This document shows positions 2,918-14,081 of a stretch of 62,306 bases of DNA, in pieces; positions within the stretch are counted from its first letter, which is position 1, and the number at the start of each line of letters is the position of its first letter. The stretch is from Thermodesulfovibrionia bacterium (GTDB lineage: Bacteria > Nitrospirota > Thermodesulfovibrionia > UBA6902), in assembly GCA_947259645.1 (NCBI GenBank), contig CAMYND010000003.1, positions 1 to 62,306 of the forward strand, read 5' to 3'. The notes below the pieces were generated by a model, which was not told the DNA's origin, ran no database searches, and saw only the letters and a program-made list of their open reading frames with translations. The translations under genes and the position numbers were made by a program.

Positions 2918-4480
2918 TCACCCTCTCAAGAGTTTATATTCTATACTGTCCACAAGTGCCTGCCAGGAAGCCTCTATGATATTTTCAGATACACCAACTG
3001 TTCCCCATTTGTGTTTGCTGTCGCCTGACTCTATCAGGACTCTGACATTCGTAGCGGTGCCCTTTCCAGCTGTCAGCACCCGTACCTTGTAGTCTATGAG
3101 CTTAACGTCTTTGAGCTGGGGATAGTATTCTTCAAGGGCTTTTCTCAGTGCATTATCAAGAGCGTTCACCGGACCATTTCCCACTGATGCTGTATGTTCA
3201 ACACCCCGGGGCGTCTTCACCATTATCGTAGCTTCGCAGATAGGGTCCTCGCCCTCTTTTCGTTTGGAAACGATCACTCTGAATCCGATGAGGTCAAAGA
3301 ATTTCCTGTGAAGCCCAAAAGCCTTTTTCAGCAGGAGTTCAAAGGACGCTTCCGCGCCTTCAAACTGCATACCCTGGTTTTCAAGAATCTTCAGCTCTTT
3401 TACGACCTCGGCTACTTTGGGTGATTTTGGATCTACCCGCAGTTTAAAGTCATCTATCTTTCGGATGATGTTGCTTTTCCCGGCCAGGTCTGACACCAGC
3501 ACCCTTTGATAGTTGCCGACTGACTCGGGCCTGATATGTTCATAGGTCTCCGGGTGCCTTTGGATCGCACTGACATGTATTCCTCCCTTGTGAGCAAATG
3601 CACTGTCGCCGACAAATGGCTGGTTCTTGAAATGCCTTAAATTGGCTATTTCAGTGACAAACCGGGAAACATCCTTTAATTTCTTTAATTTACTTATCGT
3701 TAAACATCCTTTGTTCATTTTTAACTTTAGGTTTGGAATGAGCGAAATCAGGTTTGCATTGCCGCACCGCTCACCCAGTCCGTTTATTGTCCCCTGCACC
3801 TGTGATGCCCCGGCATGCACAGCGACAAGAGAGTTGGCCACAGCGCATTCCGAGTCATTATGGGCATGAATGCCTACAGGTGTTTTAAAGGCCGCTGTTA
3901 CCGTCCTGACCTGTGATTCCACCTCACCGGGCAGGGACCCTCCGTTTGTATCGCAAAGAATAATGCGATCTGCCCCTGCTGAAATCGCGGCCTCCAGTGT
4001 CTGTATCGCATAATCAGGATTGGCCTTGTATCCGTCAAAGAAGTGTTCCGCGTCATAAAAAACATTGGGGACCCTTTTCTTTAGATGAGAAACTGTGTTG
4101 AATATCAGATCAAGGTTTGCCTGAAGAGAAACTCTCAGCGCTTCCCGTACATGAAAATCCCATGTCTTTCCGAATATCGTGACAACGGACGCATGGGCCT
4201 TTAGCAGTGCCTCGATGCCCGGATCTTTATCAACTTTAAGAGAGGCCCTGTGGGTTGATCCAAATGCTGCCAGGCTGGAATTGCGCAGTTTGAGCTTCCG
4301 CGCTTTCTCAAAAAATTCCACATCCCTGGGATTCGCTCCGGGCCATCCGCCTTCAATATAATGAATACCGAATTCATCAAGTTTTGATAGAATTCTCAGT
4401 TTGTCTTCTACAGAAAAGGATACATCCTCTGACTGAGAACCATCCCTGAGGGTTGTGTCATATATTTCAATCTTGGCCAT
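2918..4480 (-). CDS. cimA: (R)-citramalate synthase
   Basis: A 520-residue enzyme that condenses pyruvate and acetyl-CoA to citramalate, the first step of the threonine-independent route to 2-oxobutyrate and isoleucine. The N-terminal HMGL-like TIM barrel has the DTTLRDGSQ motif (8-16) and the metal-binding GIHAHND near residue 203. The C-terminal 130 residues form the LeuA allosteric domain, with a region rich in small residues ([12 protein letters not shown]). Opening residues [10 protein letters not shown] and the length separate it from LeuA and homocitrate synthase and match the long CimA group. It follows lysC by 143 bases, placing isoleucine synthesis next to aspartate-family genes. 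No strong Shine-Dalgarno precedes the ATG. Confidence 0.92.
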
Positions 4481-4623: not shown

Positions 4624-5844
4624 CTACTCTTTTGCAAGTTCAAACACCGTGTGGAGCTCACGGACAGCCTGTTCAGACTGGCTTGCAGCAACGACACAGG
4701 ATATTTTGATTTCAGATGTGCTGATCATCATTATATTGATCCCGGCCTGTGATAAGGTCTCGAACATCGTAGCTGCAACGCCAAAGTGGGACTGCATGCC
4801 CACGCCGATTATCGAAACTTTTGCCACATCAGGATTCATATTGACACCACTGGTACCCAGTTTATCAGAAACCTGTTGCGCGATCTCAAAAGCCTTATCG
4901 CCGTCTGTTTTCGATACAGTAAACGAGATGTCCGTAGCCTGGTCATCGTGGCTTATGTTCTGCACGATCATATCAACATTGACATTGGCCGCGGCTATCT
5001 TATTAAACAGTGACGCTGCAATACCCGGCCTGTCCGGCATACCCATTATCGTTATTCTTGCCTGGTTTTTATCCTGAGCCACACCAGTGACGACAACTTT
5101 TTCCATTTCACCATCCTCCTTTGTAACAAGCGTTCCCGGACTGTCGTTGTAACTGGACCGGACAACGAGAGGCACATTAAACTTTTTCGCAAATTCTACA
5201 GACCGGCCATGAAGGACCTTGGCCCCAAGACTGGCCATTTCCAGCATTTCATCATACGATATCCTCGTCATTTTTCTGGCTTCAGGGACTATTCTCGGAT
5301 CTGTTGTATACACACCATCCACATCAGTGTAGATTTCGCACAAATCCGCTTTCAAAGCAGCTGCTATTGCTACAGCGGTGGTATCAGATCCGCCCCGTCC
5401 CAGTGTTGTGACATCAGAATATTCATTGATTCCCTGGAACCCTGCTACAACAGGTATCTTGTCATGACCAAGGGCTGATTTGAGCCTGCCGGCTTCTATA
5501 TGGTCAATTAACGCCTTTGTGTGCGAACTGTCAGTAAAGATCCCCACCTGCCTTCCGGTAAAACTGATCGCCTTGCGGCCAAGCGCCTGTATCGCCATTG
5601 CCATGAGGGCGCTCGTCACCCGTTCTCCTGATGAAAGCAGCATGTCCATTTCACGCTCATCAGGTCTCGATGTGATTTCATTGGCAAATTTAATAAATTT
5701 GTCTGTCTCTCCGGCCATGGCCGATACAACAACGATAACTTTATTTCCTTCCGCTGCCCTTTCTACTACTCTCCTGGCAACAGCCTTGATTCTCTCTGTG
5801 TCCTTTACCGATGTACCGCCATATTTCTGTACTATAAGCTTCAA
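4624..5844 (-). CDS. lysC: Aspartate kinase
   Basis: A 406-residue monofunctional aspartokinase that phosphorylates aspartate as the entry to lysine, threonine and methionine synthesis. KYGGTS (7-12) is the signature substrate/ATP site, and the aspartate/nucleotide region GRGGSDTTA lies near 149-157. Two ACT domains follow from about residue 262 ([11 protein letters not shown] and SIIGVGMQS), so feedback control by lysine and/or threonine is expected. It is 17 bases downstream of the apgM-like gene and cotranscribed with it. I see no lysine riboswitch upstream, so transcriptional control probably comes from the operon promoter. Confidence 0.95.
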
Positions 5845-5861: not shown

Positions 5862-7094
5862 TCAGGCCTTCCTTGCTTCCAGAAAGTAGTCCATCAGCCT
5901 GTATCCCTTTTCAAATTTCTTGATATCTTTCATTCTGCCAATATATTCAGAATAATATCTGGCTTTTTTCTTCCTGTCAGTACCGTGAACATCACTCCTG
6001 TATAAGGCAAATGGCACCGGCTCTCCGGTATGTGTCTTTACCTTGATGGGTGTATAGTGGTCAGGCATGAGCAGTATTCTGTGTTCTCCGAATTTGCCGA
6101 CCCCTTTGAGTATGGTTCCCACCACTTTGGAATCAAAATCCTCAATCGCCTGTATTTTGGCATTCACATCTCCATTGTGGCCTGCCTCGTCTGGTGCCTC
6201 AACATGCACGTAAACGATGTCATACTTGTTTAGGGCCCGCAGGGCAGCCCTGGCTTTTCCAATATAGTTCGTATCAATATATCCTGTTGCGCCTTTCACC
6301 TTGATAATGTCAAAACCAGCGCAGAGTCCCAGCCCTTTTGTTAAATCAACAGCGGATATCAATGCCCCTTTCAGACCATATTTATCTTTAAACTGCGGGA
6401 GCGGCATCTTCTTCCCCTGCCCCCAGAACCATATGCTGTTGGCCGGGCTCAGACCTTTTCTGAATCTCTTTTGATTAACCGAATGCTTCGTCAGGATATC
6501 CACAGACCGCTCCATCAGATCATTCAGTGTATCAGCTCCCTTGCCCGATGGAAGGTATCGCTCTACCTTCCTGTCAGAAATATCATGGGGCGGAGTACAG
6601 GCAACCCGGTCTTTCCCGTTTTTCCAGATCATCAGATGGCGGTAGCTCATGCCATGATAGAACCTGATATCAGGTCCCCCCAGTTCACTGTCAAGGCTCC
6701 TGATCAATAGTGAAGCCTCGGGAGTCGAGATATGTCCTGCACTGAAATCCTTCATCATAGCCCTGTCTCTGCTGCCTATTTCCGGAAATTCCAGAGTTAC
6801 CAGGTTACAGCGGAAAGCAACGTCATCCCTGCCGAGGTCAATCCCCCTGTACTCAGCCTCTATGGGCGCTCTGCCGCTATAATATTTTGCAGGGTCATAT
6901 CCGAGGATGGAAAGGTTTGCAACATCAGAACCGGGTTCTATTCCTGCCGGCACAGTCCGTGCTATTCCGGTTTCACCATAAGTCGCGAGCCAGTCCATGT
7001 TTGGCGTCTCTGCCTTTTGAAGACATGTTTTATAGCCGAGGGATTTCAATGGCCGGTCAGCCATTCCATCGCCAACAAGTACAATGAATTTCAT
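5862..7094 (-). CDS. apgM: ApgM-type cofactor-independent phosphoglycerate mutase family; candidate homoserine kinase analogue
   Basis: A 410-residue member of the alkaline phosphatase superfamily, archaeal-type 2,3-bisphosphoglycerate-independent mutase branch. The metal-binding start (LVGDGMADRP, D9) is intact, as are the catalytic serine S62 in GSDVANLSILGYD and the late metal-site motifs VEAPDEAGHNGD and MPDHYTP. The start is the ATG at 7094, which gives the family N-terminus; the longer frame back to a TTG at 7181 adds 29 unrelated residues. No clear Shine-Dalgarno is present. Its place between thrC and lysC, in a locus with hom and thrC but no thrB, fits the published subsystem prediction that such proteins act as a functional analogue of homoserine kinase. 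Glycolytic mutase is the alternative. Confidence 0.85.
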   Translation of the reverse strand: MKFIVLVGDGMADRPLKSLGYKTCLQKAETPNMDWLATYGETGIARTVPAGIEPGSDVANLSILGYDPAKYYSGRAPIEAEYRGIDLGRDDVAFRCNLVTLEFPEIGSRDRAMMKDFSAGHISTPEASLLIRSLDSELGGPDIRFYHGMSYRHLMIWKNGKDRVACTPPHDISDRKVERYLPSGKGADTLNDLMERSVDILTKHSVNQKRFRKGLSPANSIWFWGQGKKMPLPQFKDKYGLKGALISAVDLTKGLGLCAGFDIIKVKGATGYIDTNYIGKARAALRALNKYDIVYVHVEAPDEAGHNGDVNAKIQAIEDFDSKVVGTILKGVGKFGEHRILLMPDHYTPIKVKTHTGEPVPFALYRSDVHGTDRKKKARYYSEYIGRMKDIKKFEKGYRLMDYFLEARKA

Positions 7095-7205: not shown

Positions 7206-8273
7206 TTAAATACAGCATCCTGTCAAAAGGTCTTCTATAGCTGACACATCCGCCTTGATCCTGACAGGCCTTTCAGACAGCTCAAGGGCATTGTCAGGGT
7301 CCTTTAATCCGTTACCCGTAAGAGTGCATACCACGGTATCGCCTTCTGAGAATAAATTTCTTTTCGCAAGCTTCATCAGACCTGCCAGCGTGGCTGCAGA
7401 TGCAGGCTCAGTAAAGATTCCTTCCTTTGAGGCCAGGAGCTGGTATGCCTCCAGTATCTCTTCGTCACTTACCGCTTCGATAAGCCCCTGAGACTCGTCT
7501 CTGGCTGAAAGAGCTCCGCTCCAGCTCGCCGGATTTCCGATTCGGATAGCCGTTGCAATGGTTTCAGGTTTCTCAACCGGCCGATCATTCACGATAGGCG
7601 CTGCACCGGCTGCCTGAAAACCAAGGATCCGGGGGAGAGAACTCACGTTGCCTGCCTCTTTGTACTCCCTGTATCCTTTCCAGTATGCGGTTATGTTTCC
7701 GGCATTGCCCACAGGCAGCACATGGAAGTCGGGCGCTTCTCCCAGCTGATCACAGATTTCAAATGCCGCTGTTTTCTGTCCCTCGATCCTGAATGGATTT
7801 ATCGAGTTGACCAGGGCAATTGGATGTCTCTCAACCAGTTCCTTGACAATTCTCAGTGCATCGTCAAAATTACCTTCTATCTGGATTACCAGGGCACCAT
7901 GAATCAATGCCTGCGCAAGCTTGCCCATAGCTATCTGTCCTTCAGGAATTAATACAATGCAGGACATGGCAGCCTTTGCCGAGTAGGCGGCCGCTGATGC
8001 TGAAGTGTTGCCCGTGGAGGCGCAGATTACCGCCCGCGACCCTTTCTCTTTCGCTTTAGAAATTGCAAGGGTCATGCCACGGTCTTTAAAGGAACCGGTC
8101 GGATTGGAACCTTCATATTTGAAGTACAGATTTATATTCTCGTGAATCAGTTTATCTACATATGATGATTTGATTAAAGGGGTGTTGCCTTCGTTCAGGG
8201 TCACGACCGGGGTCGTCTGCGAAACAGGGAGGTATTGTCTGTAGTGATTGATCAGTCCATTCCAGGGTTCCAT
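7206..8273 (-). CDS. thrC: Threonine synthase
   Basis: A 355-residue fold-type II PLP enzyme that converts O-phosphohomoserine to threonine. The N-terminal motif GNTPLI (29-34) is typical, the PLP lysine is K63 in [10 protein letters not shown], and the phosphate-binding loop is [13 protein letters not shown]. There is no N-terminal extension or zinc ribbon, so this is the short, typically bacterial form. Its start lies two bases from the stop of the NIL-domain gene, implying translational coupling. Of the two ThrC-like proteins in this operon this is the one closest to the classical enzyme. Confidence 0.93.
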
Positions 8274-8275
8274 AT

Positions 8276-8512
8276 TTATTCCAGTATGTCACCTTCCACA
8301 AGTTCAACATTCACTCCCTGCTGTTTCATCTCAGCGATTCCTTTTTCAATTGCTTCATCAGAGCCCTCCAGTTCGAGAATCATCTCACCTACAGTCTCTG
8401 TTACCCTGGCCCTTCTGATATTTGGTATTACATCATACTTTCTGGCCATGGTAAAGATTACCGGCTCTTTAATAAGGTCCTGTGGAAAGGTCAGCTTTAT
8501 CCTGGTCTTCAT
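8276..8512 (-). CDS. Stand-alone NIL-domain protein
   Basis: A 78-residue protein made almost entirely of a NIL (ACT-like ferredoxin-fold) domain, recognised from its pattern: basic strand [19 protein letters not shown], helix, then [15 protein letters not shown] and a final helix before VELVEG. NIL domains occur at the C-terminus of MetN methionine-import ATPases and fused to a 4Fe-4S ferredoxin in methanogen homocysteine synthesis. This copy has no cysteine and no fused ferredoxin. It is tightly coupled to thrC (2-base gap) and close to the MoaD-like gene, so it may sense or bind a sulfur amino acid or assist sulfur transfer; that is inference. Confidence 0.82.
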
Positions 8513-8551
8513 TCTAGCCCCCGATTATTCCTGCATTTAATTGTATCATTC

Positions 8552-8836
8552 TTAAGACGCTACACTTCCGCCCGCAATAGCAGGAACAATGGACACCTCA
8601 TCACCGTCCTTGACCTCTGTTTCCTCGTTCTTCAGAAACCTCACATCTTCTTCATTTACATAGACATTCACAAATCGCCGCAACTTTCCGTCTTCAGAGA
8701 TCCGTTCAGCAAGTCCCGGGTACAACTTATCCAGATCATTCACAAGCGCTATAATGGAGCCGGCTGCTCCTTCAACTTCTTCTTTCCCCTGAGTAAGCCT
8801 CTGAAGGGGCACTGGTATTTTCACTTTCACTGCCAT
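8552..8836 (-). CDS. MoaD/ThiS-like ubiquitin-fold sulfur carrier
   Basis: A 94-residue beta-grasp protein. The pattern KVKIPVPLQRLTQGK at the start and VYVNEEDVRFLKNEETEVKDGDEVSIVPAIAGG near the end is the MoaD/CysO/HcyS signature. The diglycine (GG, residues 89-90) is followed by four more residues, SVAS. The protein would therefore need C-terminal trimming before the glycine could be adenylated and converted to a thiocarboxylate. In this locus, with an E1-like ThiF and a TusA-like protein nearby and a PLP enzyme immediately upstream, I infer an amino acid biosynthesis sulfur carrier, not molybdopterin synthase. No moaE, moaA or thiG is present. Confidence 0.85.
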   Translation of the reverse strand: MAVKVKIPVPLQRLTQGKEEVEGAAGSIIALVNDLDKLYPGLAERISEDGKLRRFVNVYVNEEDVRFLKNEETEVKDGDEVSIVPAIAGGSVAS

Positions 8837-8940
8837 CTATTATCCTCCTCGTATCCTTTGCGGTCTGTAAAATTTCCGCGTTTTTTTATCATGTATGCAT
8901 GCCTGGTATCCGGGGCATGTCGCACGTATCTGAAAATGCG

Positions 8941-10176
8941 TCAGCTGCCGATCTTGGCCATCACTTCTTCAAATGATTTCATGTTCGCGCTGATGTGATG
9001 AGGTTCACCTGTGTGTCCTGTGAGCGCCTCTTTTGTCTTCATTCCATTGCCCGTAATGCAGAGAACCGTGCGGTCATCCCTTTTAATATGTCCGCTCTTA
9101 ATGAGCTTAATGGCAGACGCAAGGGTCACGCCTCCTGCTGTCTCCGCAAAAATGCCCTCCGTAGCAGCGAGAAGTTTTATGGCATCAATGATTTCCGGAT
9201 CAGAAACATCAGCACCAAATCCACCCGAATCCTTGATGACCTTTGTCGCGTAATACCCGTCGGCCGGATTTCCAATGGCAAGAGATTTGGCTATCGTATT
9301 CGGTTTTACCGGCTTAATAACATCAACCCCTTCCTTTATGGCGGCAACTATAGGAGAACAGCCTGTGGCCTGGGCCGAGAATACTTTGCAGTTGAGCTGG
9401 TCAATCAACCCTATTTCCTTCATCTCTTTAAAACTCTTCCAGATTTTGGTAAGCAATGATCCGCTGGCACAGGGGACAACTACTGCGTCAGGGGTCTTCC
9501 AGTCAAGCTGCTCGACAATTTCATATCCCTGGGTCTTTGACCCTTCAGCATAAAAAGGCCGGATGTTAATGTTGACGAATGCCCACTTATATTTATTTGC
9601 AACTTCACTGCAGAGGCGGTTCACATCATCATAGTTACCGTCAACAGCGATCAGGTTGGGCCCATAGGCAAGTGACGCAACGATTTTACTGCGTTCAAGA
9701 CTTGCCGGTATAAAGATAAACCTCTTTAATCCGGCTGCCGCGCCATGGGCAGATACAGAATGGGCCAGGTTGCCCGTAGACGCACAGGCTACGGTATCAA
9801 AACCAAACTCTTTGGCCTTTGTGAGAGCAACAGCAACAACACGGTCCTTAAAGGAAAGCGTCGGATGTGTGACGGTATCATCTTTTATGTAAAGCTCCTT
9901 GAGCCCTATCTGCTCAGCCAGTTTGTCCGCTCTGACCAGAGGAGTAAAGCCGGAATAAAGTCCGCACGTGGGTTCCCCGTCAATCGGCATCAGTTCCCTG
10001 TAACGCCACAGGTTTTGCGGCCTTGACAGTATCTGTTCCCTCGTTAAGACGTTCTTTATCTTTTCATAATCGTAAGCAACCTCGAGAGGACCGAAGCAGA
10101 ACTCGCACACATAAATGGGTTCGACCGGATATTCCCTTCCGCACTCTCTGCATTTAAGTCCTTTAACAAATCCCAT
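8941..10176 (-). CDS. Threonine synthase paralogue with N-terminal zinc ribbon
   Basis: A 411-residue fold-type II PLP enzyme of the ThrC family. It begins with a zinc-ribbon-like segment (C9-x2-C12 and C24-x2-C27). The PLP lysine is K110 in HPTLSFKDRV, where the usual P-T-G-S of threonine synthase is replaced by H-P-T-L-S. The phosphate loop is PCASGSLLTKIWKSF. A second, classical thrC lies 670 bases downstream in the same operon. The gene is flanked by an E1-like activator and a MoaD-like carrier, so it may be the PLP partner in a protein-thiocarboxylate pathway (compare CysM, also fold-type II), acting on O-phosphohomoserine or O-phosphoserine. Ordinary threonine synthase remains possible. 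Confidence 0.85.
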   Translation of the reverse strand: MGFVKGLKCRECGREYPVEPIYVCEFCFGPLEVAYDYEKIKNVLTREQILSRPQNLWRYRELMPIDGEPTCGLYSGFTPLVRADKLAEQIGLKELYIKDDTVTHPTLSFKDRVVAVALTKAKEFGFDTVACASTGNLAHSVSAHGAAAGLKRFIFIPASLERSKIVASLAYGPNLIAVDGNYDDVNRLCSEVANKYKWAFVNINIRPFYAEGSKTQGYEIVEQLDWKTPDAVVVPCASGSLLTKIWKSFKEMKEIGLIDQLNCKVFSAQATGCSPIVAAIKEGVDVIKPVKPNTIAKSLAIGNPADGYYATKVIKDSGGFGADVSDPEIIDAIKLLAATEGIFAETAGGVTLASAIKLIKSGHIKRDDRTVLCITGNGMKTKEALTGHTGEPHHISANMKSFEEVMAKIGS

Positions 10177-10289
10177 CTCTATCGCCTCCGTGCAAATACA
10201 CCATAATTCTTAACTCCTTATTCAGTCACCATGACATTCCCTGTCAATTCAGGCCCTCTTCTCATGATCGTATCCGCCTGCATTGATAA

Positions 10290-11090
10290 TTAAATTGAAC
10301 AATACTCCTCAGGCAAATCATTCAGTTCTGTTATGGTTGGATTTTTTCCGCAAATAGCGCAATTCTCATTTTTCGGTACCTTAACTTTTCTGAAATTGAC
10401 TCCCAGGGCATCATAGATCAGCAAGCTGCCTTTCAGTGGCTGCCCTTTGCCCAGGATAAGCTTCAGCACCTCGGTAGCCTGCAACGCGCCTATCACACCT
10501 GGCAGGACTCCAAGCACACCCGCTTCCTGACAGGATGGCACGAGCCCCGGCGGGGGCGGCTCCTCGAAGAGACAGCGATAACATGGCCCGTCATTGGGTA
10601 TTATTGTTGTAACCTGCCCTTCAAATCTCAGGATTGCACCGCTGACAAGAGGTTTATTAAGCATGACACAGGCATCATTTATCAGGTATCTCGTGGGAAA
10701 ATTGTCTGTGCCGTCAACAATCACATCGTAGTCCTTAAACAGTCCCAGAATATTTTTACTGTTGATTCTTTCCTTGATTGTGACAACATTCACATCAGGG
10801 TTCAGCCCTTCGAATGTCTGCTTCGCTGATTCGGCCTTGTTTACGCCGAGCGTCTTTACACTGTGGGCGATCTGCCTCTGGAGATTGCTGAGTTCAACCT
10901 CATCATTGTCCACGAGGGCCAGCGTACCTACGCCGGCCGCGGCAAGGTAATAGCCCACCGGGCATCCCAGTCCTCCGGCACCGACTATCATGACCTTTGC
11001 CTCGGATATTTTCTTCTGGCCCTTCCCTCCCACTTCCGGGAGAATAATGTGCCTGCTGTATCTTTTTAACTGCTCCTCTGTTAAATCCAT
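10290..11090 (-). CDS. ThiF/MoeB/HesA-family E1-like adenylyltransferase
   Basis: A 266-residue E1-like enzyme that adenylates the C-terminal glycine of ubiquitin-fold sulfur carriers. The ATP-binding loop is GAGGLG at 37-42, NLQRQ carries the arginine finger, and DGTDN lies near 125. A candidate catalytic cysteine lies in VPSCQEAGVLG. The two zinc-binding cysteine pairs are CYRC and CAIC. It has no C-terminal rhodanese domain, so sulfur must come from another protein; the adjacent TusA-like gene is a candidate. The start is ATG 11090, overlapping the tusA stop as TAATG with GAGG just upstream; an upstream in-frame start would add 12 poorly matching residues. Confidence 0.92.
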   Translation of the reverse strand: MDLTEEQLKRYSRHIILPEVGGKGQKKISEAKVMIVGAGGLGCPVGYYLAAAGVGTLALVDNDEVELSNLQRQIAHSVKTLGVNKAESAKQTFEGLNPDVNVVTIKERINSKNILGLFKDYDVIVDGTDNFPTRYLINDACVMLNKPLVSGAILRFEGQVTTIIPNDGPCYRCLFEEPPPPGLVPSCQEAGVLGVLPGVIGALQATEVLKLILGKGQPLKGSLLIYDALGVNFRKVKVPKNENCAICGKNPTITELNDLPEEYCSI

Positions 11091-11338
11091 TAGTCCTCTA
11101 CCTCTTTTCTCACCTGGAGAATCCATTCCTTGGCATTTATTTTTTCAATCTTCAAAACCTTATGTCCGTAATTCTCCATTGCTTTCGGAACACTGTCGGC
11201 AGCCTCCGGATAGTCAAGTATGATCTCGATGATCTGCCCTACTTCAATGCTCTCTATTCCAAGTTTTGACTTGACCAGCGTATAAGGGCAGACATCACCT
11301 CTTATGTCCAGGTTCTTATCAATTTTAATGTCTTCCAT
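11090..11338 (-). CDS. TusA/SirA-family sulfur-relay protein
   Basis: An 82-residue TusA-fold protein. The persulfide-carrying cysteine is C17 in the motif DIRGDVCPYTLVKSK; the usual CPxP is CPYT here. TusA proteins accept sulfane sulfur from cysteine desulfurases or rhodaneses and pass it on. Its start overlaps hom by 14 bases and its stop overlaps the ThiF-like start, so hom, this gene and the E1-like gene are translationally coupled. I infer it delivers sulfur to the E1/MoaD pair. Confidence 0.9.
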   Translation of the reverse strand: MEDIKIDKNLDIRGDVCPYTLVKSKLGIESIEVGQIIEIILDYPEAADSVPKAMENYGHKVLKIEKINAKEWILQVRKEVED

Positions 11339-12650
11339 TTGAATCTTCGCCTCCCTCGACCCTCAGGTACATTGTTTTGTCAGATACGATTGAGAGCCTG
11401 TTGATCTGCTTCAGGGCCCGCACCATATCTTTTTCCCTTGCTTCATGGGTCATCATGACCAATGTCACAGCCTCTTCCTTATTCCTGCCTTTTTGAATCA
11501 TTGACTTAATACTGATGTTGTTACTTCCGAGTATTCCCGAAATCTTTGAAAGAACCCCTGGTTTGTCCATCGCCGACATTCGCAGGTAGTAGCAGGTCCG
11601 TATATCTTCCATCTTTTTAATTCTCAGCGCAGGGTTCACTGAAGTCCCGATGCCCTGGAGCCTCTCTACGGCCCCTGTTTTAATGTTTCTCGCGATATCA
11701 ACAATGTCACTGACAACAGCGCTTCCTGTCGGCATATCACCGGCTCCCCGTCCATAATACAGGCCTGCACCGGCAGCATCACCTTCTATATATATCGCGT
11801 TAAAGACACCATTCACGCTTGAGATCAGATCATCCTGCGGAATCATTGTCGGATGCACCCGCAACTCAACTTCATTATCCACCTGTTTTGCGATTGCCAG
11901 TAGTTTTATCCTGTAACCGAATTCAGACGCAAATTCTATGTCAAGCGGTGTAATTCGGGTTATCCCTTCAGTGTATATTTTTTTAAATGATAAGGGTAAG
12001 CCAAAAGAGAGCGACGCCATTAAGGTGAGCTTATGGGCTGAATCAACGCCTTCTATATCAAAGGTCGGATCAGCTTCAGCATAACCGAGCGACTGTGCCT
12101 CCTTTAACACTGTTGCGAACTCTACCCCTTCTTCAGTCATCTTTGTCAGGATATAATTAGCGGTCCCGTTTATAATTCCGAAAATACTGGTAATTTTATT
12201 TCCTATGAGCGACTCCCTGACTACCTTGATAATCGGGATGCTGCCGGCTACCGAGGCTTCATACCCTATGTCCCTGCCGCATTTTGCCGCGGTGTCGAAT
12301 ATAGCTTTGCCTGACTCGGCAAGAAGGGCCTTGTTTGCCGTTACAATATGCTTGCCCTGCTTAAGGGCGCTGATGATCAGTTCTTTTGCAGGGTGTATCC
12401 CGCCGATAAGCTCAACAACAATATCAATCTCAGGATCATACAATATTTTTTTGCTGTCCTTGATAAGCATCCCTTTCGGAAGCTTGAGTCCGCGGCTCCG
12501 TTTGACATCGAGATCAGCAATATGTTTTATCCGAATCGGGAAGCCCAGCTTTTTTTCAAGGGTCTTTTGCCTGTTGAGCAGTATTGCCGCAGTTCCGGCT
12601 CCAACTGTTCCAAATCCGATAATCCCGATCTGTATGGCATCTTTCTTCAA
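11325..12650 (-). CDS. hom: Homoserine dehydrogenase
   Basis: A 441-residue enzyme reducing aspartate semialdehyde to homoserine. It has an N-terminal NAD(P) Rossmann motif (GIIGFGTVGAGTA), the NKALLAE segment, the family catalytic region GINGTANYILTKM (here IINGTANYILTKM) and GLGYAEADPTFDIEG (here SLGYAEADPTFDIEG). A C-terminal ACT domain (about 360-441, MSAMDKPGVLSKISGIL) suggests threonine feedback. The start is a TTG at 12650 with AAGGAG 6-7 bases upstream. This is the first gene of the aspartate/sulfur-relay operon; a TTGACA-type promoter lies about 60-90 bases upstream. Confidence 0.95.
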   Translation of the reverse strand: MKKDAIQIGIIGFGTVGAGTAAILLNRQKTLEKKLGFPIRIKHIADLDVKRSRGLKLPKGMLIKDSKKILYDPEIDIVVELIGGIHPAKELIISALKQGKHIVTANKALLAESGKAIFDTAAKCGRDIGYEASVAGSIPIIKVVRESLIGNKITSIFGIINGTANYILTKMTEEGVEFATVLKEAQSLGYAEADPTFDIEGVDSAHKLTLMASLSFGLPLSFKKIYTEGITRITPLDIEFASEFGYRIKLLAIAKQVDNEVELRVHPTMIPQDDLISSVNGVFNAIYIEGDAAGAGLYYGRGAGDMPTGSAVVSDIVDIARNIKTGAVERLQGIGTSVNPALRIKKMEDIRTCYYLRMSAMDKPGVLSKISGILGSNNISIKSMIQKGRNKEEAVTLVMMTHEAREKDMVRALKQINRLSIVSDKTMYLRVEGGEDSNGRH

Positions 12651-12908: not shown

Positions 12909-14081
12909 TCATCTATTGAGGGCTTTTTTAATCCCCCGAGTTGCCTGCCGTATCCTCTGTTCATTCTCAACAAGCGCAAAACGGACAAAACCCTCACCTG
13001 CGGGGCCGAAACCTATTCCCGGGGAAACAGCAACCCCTGCGGTTTTCAGCAGATACTTGGTGAATTCCAGAGATCCCATATCCTTAAAGGGGTCGGGGAT
13101 CTCGGCCCAGACAAACATGGTCGCCTTCGGAGGTTCAATGTCCCACCCGGCATTTTTCAGTCCCTGGATCAGGATATTTCTTCTGTTCTGGTATACGCCG
13201 ACTATATCGCTCACACACTTCTGGTCTCCCCTGAGAGCAATTATGCTCGCTATCTGAATAGGCTGAAACATACCATAGTCAAGATAACTCTTTATGGTAG
13301 TGAGAGCGCCAACAAGTTCCCTGTTGCCGCAGCAGAAGCCTACCCGCCATCCAGCCATTGAATAACTTTTTGTTAATGAAAAGAATTCCACGCCAACCTC
13401 CTTCGCGCCTTTGGCCTGGAGAAAACTGGGAGGCTTATAACCATCAAAGGTCAGGTCAGCATAGGCAAAGTCATGAAGCACAATAACATCGTTCTCTTTC
13501 GCAAAATCCACAACTCTCTGAAAAAACTCCAGATCAGTGCATGTAGTGGTCGGGTTGTGCGGGAAGTTGATTAAGAGGATTTTCGGCTTCGGCCATGCTG
13601 ACTTGAATACCTCTTCCATGGCGTAAAAGAAATCCGCGCCCTTCTGCACCGGGATGCTCCTGACATCACCTCCTGCAAGGATGAAGCTGTAGGGGTGAAT
13701 CGGGTAAGCCGGGGCGGGCGTCAGAACCAGGTCACCGGGTTCTATCATTGCATATGCAAGATGAGACAGCCCCTCTTTAGAACCGATCGTGGCAACAGCC
13801 TCTGTTTCGTGATCAAGGTCTACATCAAACCGCCTCTTATACCATTCACAGATGGCAAGCCTTAACTGGCCGATACCCTTTGAAGCGGAATAGCGGTGGT
13901 TTTTTGGGTTTCTGGCAGCCTCCACAAGCTTTTCAACAATATGCACCGGTGTGGGTAGGTCCGGGTTTCCCATTCCCAGATCAATAATATCCTCACCCCT
14001 TCTTCGCGCTTCCATTTTCAGCTGATTTACAATTGCAAATACATATGGCGGCAGCCGCTTTACCCGTTTAAACTCTTGCAT
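12909..14081 (-). CDS. alaC: AlaC-type class I aminotransferase
   Basis: A 390-residue PLP aminotransferase of fold type I. The substrate-binding motif is [12 protein letters not shown] (36-47), the PLP-phosphate region NFPHNPTT lies near 170, and the PLP lysine is in [12 protein letters not shown] near 235. The opening [20 protein letters not shown] and overall length match the AlaC glutamate-pyruvate transaminase group. Members are often labelled LL-diaminopimelate aminotransferase, and both activities are possible from sequence. AAGGAG precedes the ATG. It lies between lipA and hom on the same strand, so a link to aspartate-family amino acids, including lysine, is plausible. Confidence 0.85.

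Follow-up and report, generated by a model that had tools for sequence, protein, structure and literature searches.

Homoserine kinase is one of the steps most often missing from predicted bacterial amino-acid pathways: among 148 prototrophs, GapMind gives it low confidence in 29, and 15 of these carry a member of the protein family TIGR02535 (PMC7311316). The locus described here raises the same question, namely which enzyme phosphorylates homoserine where a threonine operon lacks thrB. The operon lies on the minus strand of the window, that is, the whole 62,306-nucleotide stretch of a Thermodesulfovibrionia contig (CAMYND010000003.1) that was analysed, and its gene order is hom, thiF/moeB, thrC-like, thiS, NIL, thrC, apgM-like, lysC and cimA. 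Homoserine dehydrogenase (hom, 11325-12650) is the maker of the presumed substrate; upstream of it is a pyridoxal phosphate (PLP) aminotransferase gene (12909-14081, minus strand; alanine or LL-diaminopimelate aminotransferase-like), which is retained in many relatives. Canonical threonine synthase (thrC, 7206-8273; 489 bits to the solved threonine synthase 2zsj) is the expected user of O-phosphohomoserine. It is followed by the apgM-like gene (5862-7094) and, 17 nt further downstream, by lysC for a monofunctional aspartate kinase (4624-5844). Citramalate synthase (cimA, 2918-4480; TIGR00977, 783 bits) is the usual final gene of the conserved operon. An Rfam search returned no elements in the window.

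The original prediction described an operon with lysC, hom and thrC but without thrB, and this was confirmed; thrB is also missing from the genome as a whole (131 contigs totalling 3.41 Mb, with 99.55% completeness). Genome-wide, the top match to thrB (TIGR00191) reached only 39.5 bits and is IspE, encoded next to Prs, the top match to thrB_alt (TIGR00938) reached 16 bits, and IspE alone represents the GHMP kinases (PF00288). The idea that IspE is a thrB in disguise was excluded by its family score. Two phosphoglycerate mutases are encoded elsewhere in the genome, GpmI (TIGR01307, 715 bits) and GpmA (PRK14115, 371 bits; truncated at a contig end), so glycolysis does not depend on the apgM-like protein. 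The homoserine kinase step would thus otherwise be empty, while the glycolytic step is doubly filled. The opposite pattern, against which the original prediction was staked (thrB at another locus, and the apgM-like gene as the sole phosphoglycerate mutase), is absent on both points.

The apgM-like open reading frame starts with an ATG at 7094, ends with its stop codon at 5862 and encodes 410 amino acids. Profile searches placed the protein in TIGR02535, ‘proposed homoserine kinase’ (ThrB2), with 537.7 bits against a cut-off of 446.3, and gave 552 bits for PRK04200 and 512 bits for the apgM superfamily model TIGR00306. Its Pfam matches are PF10143 and PF01676 only, which sets it outside GHMP-type ThrB (TIGR00191), and it is the only PF10143 protein in the genome. 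The reading frame, the profile scores and the neighbours at 7206-8273 and 4624-5844 all agree with the earlier description of an ApgM homologue between thrC and lysC. An AlphaFold model built from 36 aligned sequences (pLDDT 95) has the ApgMs 2zkt and 3kd8 as its closest solved structures, and D9, S56, D302, H306, D345, H346 and H355 are all identical to their counterparts in Pyrococcus ApgM 2zkt (7/7). The metal site and the serine nucleophile are therefore intact, as had been claimed, although the ‘S62’ given for the serine is GpmI numbering and the homologous residue here is S56. Such a fold and catalytic centre, and the PRK04200 name (cofactor-independent phosphoglycerate mutase), would also suit an ordinary glycolytic phosphoglycerate mutase located by chance in the threonine operon. 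We regard this as very improbable: GpmI and GpmA are already present, the score against the true-ApgM model PRK04024 (319 bits) is below the cut-off of 489, the arginines and lysine conserved in the ApgM sequences compared are replaced, and a chance location leaves both the conservation of the operon and the exclusion of thrB (see below) unexplained.

The replaced residues emerged from a comparison with true ApgM, which the original prediction had called for and which was made here at the level of sequence. At positions where all four proteins of a small ApgM set (the solved 2zkt and 3kd8 plus two distant ApgM homologues) carry R, R, R, R and K, at least 90% of 126 TIGR02535 relatives carry Y/F117, S118, H121, W224 and E299, and Y151 and H153 are likewise changed in TIGR02535 sequences relative to the ApgMs, as are positions 222 and 303. 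The window protein reads D-F-S-A-G-H at the DRRAGR site and has W224 and E299 in place of R224 and K299. E299 and E303 lie at most three residues from the metal ligand D302, and it is from such adjacency to metal ligands in the sequence that the changed residues are argued to be close to the substrate. Judged against this small ApgM set, basic residues have been lost and acidic ones gained, as would be required if the substrate had shifted from phosphoglycerate to an amino acid. In another locus (L094:650-1921), a second and distant ApgM homologue that carries DRRAGR (29% identity) was seen about 5 kb from the TIGR02535 gene and on the opposite strand.

We propose that the apgM-like protein probably replaces homoserine kinase, by phosphotransfer to homoserine via phosphoserine. 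The basis for this is the predicted fold, the metal ligands, the nucleophile, the place in the operon, the lack of thrB and the presence of two other mutases. As a metal-dependent phosphotransferase of the alkaline phosphatase superfamily, the protein would use two metals to bring a phosphoryl group onto S56, and the resulting phosphoserine intermediate would pass it to the gamma-hydroxyl of homoserine, the likely substrate, to yield O-phosphohomoserine for ThrC. The phosphoryl donor may be phosphoglycerate or PEP rather than ATP; PEP is the kind of donor that the curators of TIGRFAM suggested for TIGR02535 (quoted in PMC7311316), and phosphoglycerate is equally possible. That such proteins are functional analogues of homoserine kinase, which the original prediction credited to comparative genomics, is indeed an already published proposal (TIGR02535; GapMind 2020, PMC7311316; ThrB2 2022; PMC9026213; PMC9765024), and the window gene is a further member of this family. 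In Bacteroides, loss of the homologue BT2402 impairs growth in minimal medium, and threonine cures the defect, which counts for a kinase role, whereas the same homologue did not complement an Escherichia coli thrB mutant, which counts against it (PMC7311316). A literature search found no genetic data on any Nitrospirota member of TIGR02535.

The distribution of TIGR02535 and thrB was surveyed in 296 Nitrospirota genomes. TIGR02535 exceeded its cut-off in 142 genomes and thrB in 40, and both were present in only two, G027, which has 6% contamination, and G139, where thrB accompanies an intact TIGR02535 copy. This mutual exclusion had a Fisher p of 3.3e-10 per genome and 3.2e-6 per family, the latter being the safer figure because the surveyed genomes are related, and exactly one of the two was found in 35 of 39 families. 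No thrB_alt exceeded the cut-off anywhere in the surveyed phylum. The order hom-(...)-thrC-apgM-lysC-cimA is conserved in much of the Nitrospirota, across classes. In Thermodesulfovibrionia and other lineages, the metal ligands are all intact, in 46/46 survey copies and in all complete named loci. The genomic support for the window gene as a family member is unusually clean, with thrC and lysC flanking it and hom in the same row. Mutual exclusion with thrB, together with the missing basic residue set of true ApgM, is a further basis for a homoserine kinase role. The overall reading of the original prediction, that of a putative homoserine kinase, is supported by the thrB exclusion, the thrC-apgM-lysC order and the altered charged residues.

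Homologues from the Nitrospiraceae fit this picture badly. All 31 sequences (L081 and L164-L193) have lost H346 or H355, and 29 have lost both, with the gene in an unchanged thrC-lysC slot at L081, L181, L185 and L190. No thrB or thrB_alt exceeded its cut-off in the sampled Nitrospiraceae genomes, whose motif-recognisable GHMP kinases resemble sugar-phosphate-kinase types on motif inspection. In the tree, the metal-site-broken Nitrospiraceae copies form a derived branch (100/100) within a supported set (100/98) that also includes the intact-ligand copies L074 and L080, plus G199 and G296. The last two genomes conserve the slot with altered proteins: D9N, H306P and H355P in L079 (G199), a genome with thrB, and S56G and D345N in L082 (G296), a genome for which thrB is not listed. 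Elsewhere, a Desulfoscipio geothermicus MAG (L134) has hom, thrB, lysC and a TIGR02535-like apgM in one row, an arrangement that argues against the two kinases being simply redundant. This row, like the co-occurrence of thrB and an intact copy in G139, counts against a homoserine kinase role.

Broken copies without thrB suggest that, in Nitrospiraceae, either another kinase has replaced the apgM-like protein or its function extends past phosphotransfer. Taken phylum-wide, the second option would make it a non-catalytic subunit, accessory or regulatory, in threonine synthesis, with an unrecognised kinase as the catalyst. Retention of the Nitrospiraceae slot despite histidine loss in 31/31 sequences and despite the lack of a detectable thrB or thrB_alt would suit such a subunit, as would the failure of BT2402 in E. 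coli (PMC7311316), but ligands conserved in all 46 survey copies from Thermodesulfovibrionia and other lineages would be needless in a non-catalytic protein, and the broken copies are a derived branch in a set that also has intact ones; we therefore consider an accessory role unlikely. The Nitrospiraceae with a broken protein sharpen the homoserine kinase puzzle, and the Nitrospirota, with exclusion between the substitute and thrB in most families and a broken copy in one, offer matched natural controls for the function of the substitute and for a possible third enzyme.

If the apgM-like protein is a kinase, threonine could be its substrate instead. As an L-threonine kinase it would provide CobD with the threonine phosphate used in the cobalamin side chain, and a different enzyme would phosphorylate homoserine. 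The genome does encode a cobalamin cluster with cobC and the threonine-phosphate decarboxylase gene cobD (L277:13222-14379; TIGR01140, 361 bits, cut-off 290.6), it has no PduX-type threonine kinase, IspE being its sole GHMP kinase, and a TIGR02535 gene in a Dehalobacter corrinoid operon has been proposed as a threonine kinase (PMC4285132). However, the cobD cluster is on another contig (C1), the apgM-like gene is found in the hom-thrC-lysC operon rather than with cob genes, in this genome as in its relatives throughout the phylum, and mutual exclusion with thrB is accounted for by phosphorylation of homoserine and not of threonine. A threonine kinase is a rival to be taken seriously but is unlikely on these grounds; one enzyme using both homoserine and threonine is possible.

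The ThrC-like/ThiS/NIL/ThiF gene set (8276-11126, minus strand), which the original prediction left out, is conserved beside the apgM-like gene. It comprises a second, divergent threonine-synthase-like gene (8941-10176), which adjoins thiS in relatives and encodes ASGSL where canonical ThrC has the loop GNAGN; a ThiS-family sulfur carrier (8552-8836) with the C-terminus GGSVAS; a free-standing NIL-domain protein (8276-8512; PF09383, 67.7 bits); and a ThiF/MoeB-type adenylyltransferase (10290-11126), the presumed activator of ThiS. In most of 31 ThiS relatives, AIAGG is followed by a few variable C-terminal residues, and such a masked C-terminus implies a trimming protease. In Wolinella, masked ThiS-like carriers supply the synthesis of homocysteine, a pathway in which methanogens have NIL proteins. 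The genome encodes no genuine PF01053 enzymes (MetB/MetC/MetY/MetZ), an absence that is only suggestive of another route to homocysteine, as it also occurs in genomes without these ThiS genes.

By analogy, these genes suggest, as a lead only, that O-phosphohomoserine may also supply homocysteine synthesis. The ThiF/MoeB and NIL proteins and the trimming protease would then supply thiocarboxylated ThiS to the second ThrC-like enzyme. A broader scheme would make O-phosphohomoserine a branch point, from which ThrC leads to threonine and the ThrC-like enzyme with thiocarboxylated ThiS leads to homocysteine, and would add a third homoserine kinase in place of the metal-site-broken Nitrospiraceae protein; in this combined form it seems doubtful. 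A ThrC-like/ThiS homocysteine route was not found in the open-access literature, and we found no earlier report of the broken-copy pattern in Nitrospiraceae or of thrC-like/ThiS genes in this operon.

As a putative homoserine kinase, the apgM-like protein can be set beside four known systems. It shares its predicted product and operon role with the GHMP homoserine kinase ThrB (TIGR00191), but the two have unrelated folds, and ThrB is missing from this genome. With ApgM (2zkt, 3kd8) it shares the fold, the S56 nucleophile, six metal ligands and ~30% identity, and differs in the replacement of DRRAGR, R224 and K299, in missing the PRK04024 cut-off and in its amino-acid-synthesis context. PhpG, the CMP-5'-phosphonoformate--3-phosphoglycerate phosphonoformyl transferase (NF038358), is a related protein (212 bits, far below the cut-off of 545) whose name denotes an intermolecular transfer with 3-phosphoglycerate and so provides a precedent within the superfamily, although the group moved is phosphonoformyl rather than phosphoryl. 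TIGR02535/ThrB2, represented by Bacteroides BT2402 (Q5LHR7), is the same family over the cut-off; its genes are likewise grouped with hom and thrC, its distribution is complementary to that of thrB (PMC9026213) and BT2402 has the conserved metal site (PMC9765024), whereas the operon in the window adds lysC, cimA and the ThrC-like/ThiS/NIL/ThiF set.
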